The translations under genes were made by a program, and so were the position numbers. A DNA stretch of 30,959 bases from the IMG/VR virus record IMGVR_UViG_3300019776_000136, positions 1 through 30,959 of that record; one strand, 5' to 3'. Below the pieces are notes generated by a model. That model was not told the origin of the DNA, did no database searches, and saw only the letters and a program-made list of their open reading frames with translations. Source of the stretch: a virus. The first letter of the stretch is position 1; each line of letters opens with the position of its first letter. Of this stretch, positions 26,095 to 28,587 are shown piece after piece.

Positions 26095-26649
26095 ATGAAA
26101 GCACTACACAAAATCGCTGGCCATGATGATTTAAGGCCATCATTCCGTTACATAGAACTGAAAGACAAATATTTTTCGGTTACAGATGCACACATGTTGT
26201 TGCGCATACCGCAGGAGGAAGTCTTTACGCCAGAAACCTTGGCGCAACTACCTGAACATTGCTACTTTGATTCCTATTTCTGGAACATGTCAAATGTCAG
26301 CAAGTCGAAATATCAAGCACTTCAAAATGGCCTAATAAAGTGCTACAATAAAGACCTAAAAATAATAGGTTTTTTGCCTTTTCTTACCCTTGATGAGTTT
26401 AACGATAAAGTTGGTAAATACGTGGATATTTTAACGGCTATTCCATCAAAAGACCAGCGCATGATGGTGAACCGAATTAGCCTTAATGCAAATTATCTGA
26501 AAACAATGTCCGATGTGATGGGCGGGGTTCCATTTTGCCTTGAGTTTAACGGAGAGAACAAAGGAATAGTAATGGAGTTTTCAGGAAGCGGGGCTATTGG
26601 CTTAGTTATGCCAATGTTAATAAGCCAATATGATCATAGTTTTAATTAA
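26095..26649 (+). CDS. sliding-clamp-like protein (184 aa)
   Basis: The order of segments recalls part of a DNA polymerase III beta clamp. FRYIELKDKYFSVTDAHMLL (residues 17-36) matches the strand / TD / strand opening of a clamp domain. Then come DKVGKYVDILTAIP (about 104-117, like the Y-P-x-x-x-I-P linker), ISLNANYLKTMSDVMGG (about 127-143, like the domain 3 opening) and GIVMEFSGSGAIGLVMPMLI at the end (like the closing MPM strand). At 184 aa it is about half a bacterial clamp. It would raise polymerase processivity or tether phage proteins to DNA. The call is from pattern alone. Confidence 0.7.
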   Translation: MKALHKIAGHDDLRPSFRYIELKDKYFSVTDAHMLLRIPQEEVFTPETLAQLPEHCYFDSYFWNMSNVSKSKYQALQNGLIKCYNKDLKIIGFLPFLTLDEFNDKVGKYVDILTAIPSKDQRMMVNRISLNANYLKTMSDVMGGVPFCLEFNGENKGIVMEFSGSGAIGLVMPMLISQYDHSFN

Positions 26650-26671
26650 TTACAAAATTTTGTAATTAATT
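26644..26671 (+). repeat. 28-bp perfect palindrome
   Basis: AATTAATTACAAAA (26644-26657) is followed at once by its exact reverse complement TTTTGTAATTAATT (26658-26671). It contains the stop codon of the upstream gene and lies just ahead of a possible -7 box (TATATTG, 26674-26680). It may be an operator for the structured RNA, or a weak 3' hairpin for the upstream mRNA. Confidence 0.75.
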
Positions 26672-26689
26672 GTTATATTGCAGTATAAA

Positions 26690-26781
26690 ATTAGCTTAGA
26701 GGGTAGGAGTTCTAAGGTAATTGAGGTTTCCAAGACCAAGCCCCGATTTGCACTCCTACGCATTTTGGGGCTATTTTTTTT
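26690..26781 (+). ncRNA. structured RNA with two hairpins and a kissing loop
   Basis: This 151-nt gap has no gene. Hairpin 1 pairs CTTAGA (26695-26700) with TCTAAG (26711-26716) around GGGTAGGAGT. Hairpin 2 pairs AGCCCCGA (26739-26746) with TTGGGGCT (26765-26772), then TGC with GCA closing an 8-nt loop ACTCCTAC (26752-26759). That loop is the exact complement of GTAGGAGT (26703-26710) in loop 1. Eight Ts (26774-26781) make hairpin 2 a terminator. The region ends 19 nt before the next ATG. It may be a free small RNA or an attenuator leader for the replication genes; the 5' end near 26690 is estimated. Confidence 0.65.
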
Positions 26782-26800
26782 ATGCTTAATCAAATAATTT

Positions 26801-27037
26801 ATGACACATTCACCTGCATATATAAATTTGTTTTGCGAATTATTTCCGGAACATAAAGAAGTTGCACATTCCGAACTTAGCATCATTATGGTTGTCGATT
26901 GTTTGACACCTGAAGCCATTTTGAATTGCAAAACGATTAAACAATCACATTATCTTGCAACAAGGCAAATAATGGTCAATCGTTTGCGACGTTTGGATGA
27001 ACAAGATAAATTGCATTCACGAAATAAAGTAAATTAA
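26801..27037 (+). CDS. small protein before the replication initiator, unknown (78 aa)
   Basis: First gene after the structured RNA; the leader CTTAATCAAATAATTT precedes the ATG. The body appears helical (SELSIIMVVDCLTPEAIL), with a basic C-terminal half (KQSHYLATRQIMVNRLRRLD) that could bind nucleic acid. It ends 1 nt before the initiator gene. No family recognised. Confidence 0.7.
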   Translation: MTHSPAYINLFCELFPEHKEVAHSELSIIMVVDCLTPEAILNCKTIKQSHYLATRQIMVNRLRRLDEQDKLHSRNKVN

Positions 27038-27038
27038 A

Positions 27039-27899
27039 ATGGCACGTCTTAGAAGTATATCCACCGCATTTTGGAGTGATCCATTTATTGAAGATTGCAC
27101 ACCAAATGAAAAATTGCTTTTTCTTTATTTAATTACAAATGAAAAAACAAACATGCTTGGAATTTATGAAGCAAGTGTGAAGAAGATTGCATTTGAAACA
27201 GGAATACCAATGGAAGTCGTTCGAAAGTCTTTGGAACGATTTGAAACCATTGGAAGATTGCGATATATTCAAAATCATGTTGTGTTAATTAACTTCATGA
27301 AGCATCAAAATTTCAATTTTAACATGAAAAAATCTGCAATAGAGGCTTATAACGAACTTCCAGAGTTTTTAAAGCTTGAAAATTTGCAAGAAATACCAAA
27401 GGATTCGGAAGGGTTCGAAACCCTTTGCAAAGCATTCGGAATGGTTCGGAAAGAAGAATATGAAGTAGAAGAAGAAGTTGAATATGAAGTAGAAGAAGAA
27501 ATAGAAGTAATGAAGGGTTTCGATTTTTTTTGGAATTCTTATCCTTTAAAAACTGGGAAAGCAAAATCCTTAATTGCCTTTAAAAAAATCAAACTGGGGG
27601 CGCGCGAAAATTTCTTTGAATATTTGCGAGAATATTGCGAATATCTGGAAGTCGCAAAGTGGAGGCAAGCATCAGCACCAGTAGTCTTTATCAACAAGTT
27701 TCTGAAAAATGGGAGGGATGAAGATTACCAGGAGCTGAAAAGGGTTGAACTTGAAAAACAAAATCAAGGATCTAATCAAAACCAAGATCCAAAGCAAGGC
27801 AAAATGGCAAAGCACTTGGAAATAATGACACCAGTTTATGAAGAAGCTAAACAACAAATGAGAGATGGAACTTATCGGAATCCCTTTAAAATTAGCTAA
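27039..27899 (+). CDS. replication initiator, winged-helix type
   Basis: A 286-aa protein of the phage replication initiator type. The N-terminal winged helix (about 1-110) contains ISTAFWSDPFIEDCTPNEKL, LFLYLITNEKTNMLGIYEAS and KIAFETGIPMEVVRKSLERF, as in lambda O-like and DnaD-like proteins. A very acidic linker follows (about 137-155, Glu/Val/Tyr repeats). A second helical domain (about 158-228) contains FDFFWNSYPLKTGKAKSLIA, LREYCEYLEVAKWRQASAPV and FINKFLKNGRDEDY, typical of phage replication proteins. The tail is Gln/Asn-rich. The linker DNA holds direct repeats that may be the origin, as in lambda O. It overlaps the next gene by 35 nt. Confidence 0.85.
   Translation: MARLRSISTAFWSDPFIEDCTPNEKLLFLYLITNEKTNMLGIYEASVKKIAFETGIPMEVVRKSLERFETIGRLRYIQNHVVLINFMKHQNFNFNMKKSAIEAYNELPEFLKLENLQEIPKDSEGFETLCKAFGMVRKEEYEVEEEVEYEVEEEIEVMKGFDFFWNSYPLKTGKAKSLIAFKKIKLGARENFFEYLREYCEYLEVAKWRQASAPVVFINKFLKNGRDEDYQELKRVELEKQNQGSNQNQDPKQGKMAKHLEIMTPVYEEAKQQMRDGTYRNPFKIS
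27403..27500 (+). repeat. iteron-like repeats, candidate replication origin
   Basis: Inside the initiator gene, ATTCGGAAGGGTTCG (27403-27417) recurs as ATTCGGAATGGTTCG (27434-27448), one mismatch, 31-nt period. Between them is an inverted repeat AAGGGTT-CGA-AACCCTT (27409-27425). Two perfect 21-bp direct repeats follow (27456-27476 and 27480-27500, period 24), almost pure purine on this strand. Iterons followed by an easily melted purine tract within the initiator gene is the layout of the lambda origin. Confidence 0.5.
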
Positions 27900-28587
27900 C
27901 AGCACTTTAACGGTGCATGAGCAAAGAATTTATGACGCTACATTATCGGTTAGGCTGGTAAATCTGGATGAAGAAGCAAAATTGAATATTGTCGGAAAGA
28001 TATTTTTGACGGCAAAATCAAGGCTTGGATTAAATACGACTTCAAAGGAAGATGAAATGATACTTAGGGACGTACTTCTAGAGGATTTAGAGCAGTTTAA
28101 AGGCTTGACCGAGGTGGAAGTATTATCGGCCTTAAAATCGGGCCTTAATGGGGAGTATTTGGGTAAAAATGAATCAAGCGTTTTTTTTAATTCTTCAAAC
28201 TTTGTGCAATGGGTAAAAAAGTACATCGAGCAAAAAGCCGAGGTTATGAAAAAAGTCGCACTAGCTAAAAAGATTGAACCAGCAAAACCAAAGCCAACAG
28301 ATGCCGAAATGAAAGCGGAGGCAATATCTATCGCAAATTCGTATGTTCGAAAGGTTGCGGAGGCTGAAAATAAAGAAGATGTTTACCAATGGGCAGGAGG
28401 ATTAAATTTTCTTTATGACATAGCTAATAATCATAAATTGATACCTTTTACAGGCCCAAGAAAGCGAGAAATATTGGCTTTATGCAATAACGATATTGAT
28501 TTAGCAAAGTCAGAAACTTACAAACTTTGGATTACCGAAATGGCAGAAAATGGAATGAGTTTAGATGAAAATGGGGGAATGGTATGA
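27865..28587 (+). CDS. replication-region protein, unknown (240 aa)
   Basis: Begins 35 nt inside the initiator gene and ends in an ATGA overlap with the HNH gene, so it is part of the replication operon. The protein is helical. The segment TVHEQRIYDATLSVRLVNLD at about 16-35 is followed by GKIFLTAKSRLGL, LRDVLLEDLEQFKGLTEVEV (about 68-87) and VQWVKKYIEQKAEVMKKVAL (about 114-133). A Lys/Pro/Ala linker follows (about 134-145), then a C-terminal helical part. In lambda-like phages the gene after the initiator encodes a helicase loader, and this protein could do that job, but I see no AAA+ motif. Not recognised by sequence. Confidence 0.75.
   Translation: MELIGIPLKLANSTLTVHEQRIYDATLSVRLVNLDEEAKLNIVGKIFLTAKSRLGLNTTSKEDEMILRDVLLEDLEQFKGLTEVEVLSALKSGLNGEYLGKNESSVFFNSSNFVQWVKKYIEQKAEVMKKVALAKKIEPAKPKPTDAEMKAEAISIANSYVRKVAEAENKEDVYQWAGGLNFLYDIANNHKLIPFTGPRKREILALCNNDIDLAKSETYKLWITEMAENGMSLDENGGMV

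Follow-up and report, generated by a model that had tools for sequence, protein, structure and literature searches.

A putative kissing-loop leader RNA with a terminator hairpin ahead of replication genes in Bacteroidota phages

Here, we provide comparative evidence for a phage leader RNA in which two hairpins carry mutually complementary loops and the second hairpin is a predicted intrinsic terminator that abuts the opening start codon of replication operons. More than 110 viral contigs contain the leader RNA, as do isolated phages of Flavobacterium, Cellulophaga, Olleya and Tenacibaculum. This widespread element is conserved almost only in its architecture, i.e., promoter, hairpin, linker, terminator hairpin with matching loop, and start codon, and about 25 different loop pairs were found, such as GUAGGAG/CUCCUAC and GUGGUAG/CUACCAC. 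Both hairpins, the loop-loop pairing, the position as a leader and the promoter motif are well supported by comparison among relatives; that the leader pairs in cis and affects termination, in which direction, and under what controlling signal, if any, is what we infer. We regard as the probable explanation a cis-acting kissing-loop leader of the phage replication operon, which would control how often transcription passes the terminator and enters the replication genes.

The window, i.e., the whole stretch of 30,959 nucleotides that was analysed (positions 1-30,959 of IMG/VR record IMGVR_UViG_3300019776_000136), carries the leader RNA on the plus strand at about 26686-26781, where it folds into hairpin 1, a small middle hairpin and the terminator hairpin 2. 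A predicted -7 promoter box, TATATTG (26674-26680), of the Bacteroidota sigmaA type (consensus TAnnTTTG) places the expected transcript start near 26686. Hairpin 1 (26689-26722) consists of an outer stem (26689-26693/26718-26722), a G.G mismatch (26694/26717), an inner stem (26695-26701/26710-26716) and the loop GGUAGGAG (26702-26709), with 26703-26709 (GUAGGAG), possibly also U26710, as the kissing bases. The linker contains the middle hairpin GGUUU-CCA-AGACC (26725-26737), and middle hairpins of this GGTT..AACC type are present in most members of the window clade and missing in many distant members. Hairpin 2, the predicted intrinsic terminator (26739-26781 including the U-run), has a stem at 26739-26746/26765-26772, an apical TGC/GCA stem at 26749-26751/26760-26762, the loop ACUCCUAC (26752-26759) with kissing bases 26753-26759 (CUCCUAC), and a U8 run at 26774-26781. 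The two loops match over 7-8 base pairs. Positions 26680-26790 have a folding energy of -37.5 kcal/mol (z = -3.9), and 1 of 200 shuffles was as good. A preliminary description, made from the sequence alone, had placed a two-hairpin RNA with complementary loops here, and sequence and fold agree with it; it captured the core of both hairpins, missed the outer half of hairpin 1 behind the G.G mismatch, and overlooked the middle hairpin and the -7 box. The folds revealed no antiterminator hairpin that would compete with these. Just 5' of the -7 box, the window holds a perfect AT-rich palindrome, TTAATTACAAAATTTTGTAATTAA (26648-26671), which could be an operator or the transcript end of the upstream gene.

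The element is not traceable by sequence, as BLASTN of the leader RNA against 50,697 phage records yielded chance matches or none. Scanning viral contigs for GTAGGAGT...ACTCCTAC returned at least 120 stretches, many of them by chance. Among the matches listed, the spacings between the loops clustered at 57-60 nt, and loci with this spacing share two or three hairpins, a T-run and an upstream -7 box, with compensated differences in the stems. Further scans brought the collection to 117 loci with exactly one leader copy each. Because the first scan required complementary loops, three scans were run with one stem fixed and the loop left free. They recovered ACTCCTAC, ACTCCGAC or TCTACCAC as loop 2 and GTAGGAG, GTCGGAG or GTGGTAG in hairpin 1, and every readable member has complementary loops. 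The one exception, L180, was rejected as an unrelated match in which the rest of the element is absent. The pair GTCGGAG/CTCCGAC was found on two different terminator stems. Loops that had drifted and kept their complementarity include GUGGUAG, GUGAGAG, GUCAGAG, GUCGUCG and GCAUCCUAC. The preliminary description had named loops that vary without staying complementary as the observation that would speak against it; the loops do vary, and complementarity is retained.

An independent route used the protein only. An alignment of the initiators of the window, two relatives and Tenacibaculum phage JQ led to 80 loci, three of them truncated. The leader lies upstream of the initiator in 49 of the 77 evaluable loci, including two with a weak hairpin 1 that were read by eye (L200 and L215), and in two more it lies 3.1 kb downstream, before an HNH gene. 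It was not found in the other 26 evaluable loci, which belong mostly to a few related clades, and is thus not essential to the initiator gene. Leaders found in this way added many loop pairs, all of them complementary, including GTGAGAG/CTCTCAC, GTCAGAGT/ACTCTGAC, GTGGAATTC/GAATTCCAC, ACTGGTACT/AGTACCAGT, GGTCTGAC/GTCAGACC and GTTGCAG/CTGCAAC, besides the 6-nt pairs CCGCCA/TGGCGG and GTGCCT/AGGCAC. In Tenacibaculum phage JQ, with loops GCATCCTAC/GTAGGATGC (GCAUCCUAC/GUAGGAUGC in the RNA), the purine-rich and pyrimidine-rich roles are exchanged. Relatives of DUF6291-type initiators led to further isolated phages, namely Flavobacterium phages 11b (CGGGCAGG/CCTGCCCG), elemoA (TGAGAGC/GCTCTCA), and tooticki and lillamy (GTGAGACG/CGTCTCAC), Olleya phage Harreka_1 (GTGGTGG/CCACCAC, read by eye) and Cellulophaga phage phi19:3 (CTCTCACA/TGTGAGAG). 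Searches of whole records added FCL-2 (CATCCAC/GTGGATG) and Cellulophaga phage phi19:1 (GTACGAC/GTCGTAC), the latter read by eye because its T-run is too short for the fold-based descriptor described below. The leader of L282 (~1525-1637; GTTGCAG/CTGCAAC) stands directly 5' of a NUMOD4/HNH_3 endonuclease gene, with the initiator 3.1 kb upstream. A second leader in tooticki6-1 (L299, ~1085-1190), with the unrelated loops GTCGTCG/CGACGAC, also directly precedes an HNH endonuclease gene.

A covariance model (R1) recovered the window clade and scored distant types at noise, and a fold-based descriptor was therefore used, which demands a 7-nt Watson-Crick match between the loops of two hairpins and a T-run after the second one. 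Searched on both strands of the window, it matched exactly one site, the leader, and none in 60 dinucleotide shuffles, in keeping with the earlier judgement that the loop match is improbable by chance. Over 4.66 Mb of fetched loci it gave 214 matches, of which all but about three are the same element; its specificity is high. The descriptor had no match in Riemerella phage RAP44, Vibrio phage D478, Elizabethkingia phage TCUEAP2, Bacteroides phages BKO1-3 and Alistipes phage AS73P1, nor, when applied alone, in phage 6H, Nonlabens phage P12024S and the first 50 kb of Cellulophaga phage phi38:1. Bacterial and archaeal genomes were covered by a strict scan for window-type loops in 84,980 species genomes, which gave no match. 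A protein search of the same collection returned 58 loci, one of which has the leader: in L319, a Saprospiraceae MAG, the loops GTAGGAG/CTCCTAC sit on unrelated stems at 1065-1162, before a DnaG/Toprim-DnaB primase-helicase gene. The element is hence not strictly absent from genome assemblies.

Compensatory change, which the preliminary description had proposed to look for in relatives, is strong in the stems, and the loop pairs stay matched. We aligned 48 distinct members of the window clade in a fixed register, leaving out L082, which looks like a chance match, and L056, which has another stem register. In this alignment, 98.8% of the cells are paired. Both partners have changed among the members in each of the 12 pairs of stem 1 and in the three apical pairs of stem 2. 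Covariation scored 0.556, whereas shuffles scored 0.175 (sd 0.010) and slid structures no more than 0.10. In the kissing helix, 100% of the cells are paired, and both partners have changed in three of its pairs. These rows were preselected for complementarity, so that the unbiased evidence for the helix comes from the loop-free scans, the protein-found loci and the isolated phages. Across 23 loop-pair types, the longest match of a loop to its own partner averages 7.7 nt versus 3.4 nt between types, a few of which cross-match because they are nearly identical words. Both loops thus drift freely and are constrained only to pair with each other, which indicates that the two loops are each other's partners. 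This drift speaks against a fixed target in trans and against ribosome mimicry. The suggestion that the AGGAG/CTCCT words in the loops touch the ribosome, as a Shine-Dalgarno mimic, or act as an antisense decoy is not borne out, as homologous loops lose the AGGAG and CCUCC words and stay complementary.

Of 121 distinct relatives, 107 have a -7 box no more than 45 nt from hairpin 1. The box nearly always stands 12-14 nt 5' of the stem, and TTG-like bases precede it by 22-20 nt. The leader promoter resembles the flavobacterial sigmaA -7 consensus TAnnTTTG (PMC9723704), and given its fixed spacing, transcription is expected to start at the foot of hairpin 1. At the other end, a GC-rich stem with 5-8 Ts directly after it is conserved across very different members. 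In 136 of 149 window-clade members, an open reading frame begins with an ATG 5-19 nt, mostly 8-11 nt, past the end of the T-run (19 nt in the window). The earlier reading of hairpin 2 and its T-run as a terminator ahead of replication genes is supported by these data. In the window, the leader is followed by three plus-strand genes. The first open reading frame (78 aa, 26801-27037) starts 19 nt past the T-run; a protein search found no relative, and it had no PHROG or Pfam match. It is followed by the replication initiator, a DnaD-like helicase loader or replisome organizer (27039-27899; PHROG 1701 and 6251, E ~1e-20), relatives of which sit behind the leader in most loci, and by a conserved second operon gene (protein cluster 0, 240 aa, 27865-28587) with relatives in 86 leader loci and no Pfam match. 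Leaders of the window type are followed by initiators of the DnaD-like/replisome-organizer class, other leaders by Lin1244_N, HTH_36 or DUF6291 proteins, and next comes a conserved uncharacterised protein or a DnaB helicase. The leader is kept although the downstream gene differs, in some cases being an HNH endonuclease or primase-helicase gene. Among the putative initiators behind the leader in L006, L016, L124, L003 and the window, the N-terminal domain families differ and the leader is constant, as if origin-binding modules had been swapped behind it.

The proposed cis-acting leader would operate as follows. RNA polymerase would start a few nucleotides 5' of hairpin 1 and transcribe hairpin 1, a linker of about 15-30 nt and hairpin 2, which, with its U-run, would act as an intrinsic terminator ending just 5' of the first start codon. 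Through 6-9 base pairs between the hairpin 1 loop and the apical hairpin 2 loop, the leader would become a folded unit of about 95 nt. This kissing contact may then determine the amount of transcription, or of translation just after the hairpin, that arrives at the replication genes. There is almost no room for a second promoter between terminator and start codon, so the replication genes would be expressed only from transcripts that pass the terminator, and the kissing interaction thus most likely sets the flow into them. With a predicted promoter, a structured leader and a terminator before the start codon all present, the element can be classed as a putative leader terminator or transcription attenuator, and also as a candidate intramolecular kissing-loop RNA, its loops being kept complementary by compensatory change and presumed to pair in cis. 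Termination could also be unregulated, with the kissing contact serving stability only.

The preliminary description had left the choice between a stable small RNA and a leader of the initiator operon. The second option is favoured, since in nearly all window-clade relatives the T-run lies right next to the start codon and since the loops drift freely. Alternatively, the locus could encode an independent small RNA (about 95 nt) that owes its stability to the kissing fold and acts in trans on targets in the host or the phage; its place before the replication genes would then simply be inherited gene order. Such an RNA would fit the predicted promoter motif and terminator of its own, the compact stable fold and the single copy per locus. 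We nevertheless consider it unlikely, given the tight spacing from T-run to ATG, which points to a role in cis, and the association of the leader with HNH and primase-helicase genes. Moreover, distant members share no sequence and their loops only track each other, leaving no shared target recognisable by base pairing. It is more doubtful still that the leader is primarily a 5' stability or translation element, whose kissing fold shields the mRNA 5' end and whose hairpin 2 tunes ribosome access, with little termination at the T-run. The expected transcript start at the foot of hairpin 1 and a start codon about 8-20 nt past the T-run are compatible with this idea, as is the reported dependence of flavobacterial initiation on mRNA structure instead of Shine-Dalgarno pairing (PMC6847099), but a conserved GC-rich stem with 5-8 Ts would be superfluous for a pure translation element.

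Two further alternatives are very improbable in our view. The constant replication-gene neighbourhood could suggest that the RNA primes or marks a replication origin, like the R-loop primer of ColE1, and would for that reason lie beside the initiator gene. However, the leader moves with other genes (HNH, primase-helicase), keeps no primary sequence, and the same leader type occurs with initiators of different families. Similarly, complementary loops of one RNA are able to pair between molecules, forming dimers or rings like phi29 pRNA, and covariation alone does not tell cis from trans pairing. Yet the linkers of distant members, about 15-30 nt and mostly AU-rich, are as expected for a span in cis and would favour cis pairing, and the adjoining genes function in replication, not packaging. 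A further reading, which we regard as rather improbable, is that the leader serves as its own antisense: short terminated copies would build up with phage genome number, swap kissing partners in trans with nascent leaders and feed back on initiator expression. If so, each lineage would own a private loop pair, and the system would mirror, on the sense strand, the copy-number and incompatibility control of plasmids.

Comparison with Rfam 15 gave no family match in the window, and none that was meaningful at permissive E-values, in line with the earlier statement that no named RNA family is recognisable; 15 related loci had no match at the leader and only one tRNA. No description of the leader element was found in the open-access literature. 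Several known systems share parts of its design. RNA I and RNA II of ColE1 form a 7-base loop-loop kissing complex between two molecules, by which an antisense RNA controls the primer. The phage leader resembles them in a loop-loop contact bearing on DNA replication, but carries both loops on one sense strand, with no antisense RNA seen. In pT181-type plasmids, attenuation controls the rep gene. In I-complex plasmids, RNAI kisses the leader of the rep mRNA (PMC10724649). These plasmids likewise have a structured leader at a replication initiator and loop bases that set specificity and diverge into compatible types; they use an antisense RNA, however, whereas the partner loop here, in phages of another phylum, would be that of the leader's own terminator. 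Read on the reverse strand, the structure does not end in a T-run. Downstream of it, 50 of 121 members have a degenerate -7 box on the opposite strand, a count that carries no chance estimate. Purine riboswitches are 5' leaders with kissing loops and a terminator before the gene. Riboswitch and attenuator leaders of this kind have the same 5' leader position, loop-loop tertiary contact and terminator, but the phage leader has no conserved ligand-binding core, retains only architecture and complementarity, and its terminator loop itself would kiss. In the pRNA of phi29 and its relatives, loops pair between molecules in the packaging motor. There, too, two loops of one phage RNA are complementary while the sequence changes between phages; fold, genes and hosts are different, and our leader adjoins replication genes. 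What appears to be new is the combination, in one sense-strand leader across Bacteroidota phages, of three known elements: kissing loops, leader terminators and the control of replication initiators by RNA.

The leader heads replication operons in phages of Flavobacteriia and relatives, where gene control is little known, and points to a possible, undescribed RNA switch or brake on phage replication. It raises the testable question whether the strength of an intrinsic terminator can be set by an RNA tertiary contact made with its loop. The many natural loop pairs, two of them within one phage, also represent a set of orthogonal parts. In L209 (~2370-2500), TATATTTG is followed by a hairpin with a GCAGAAC loop and a long hairpin with GTTCTGC in its loop and no T-run, perhaps a non-terminating variant of the leader. 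At 730-815, the window also contains a tRNA-Arg gene with anticodon CCT.
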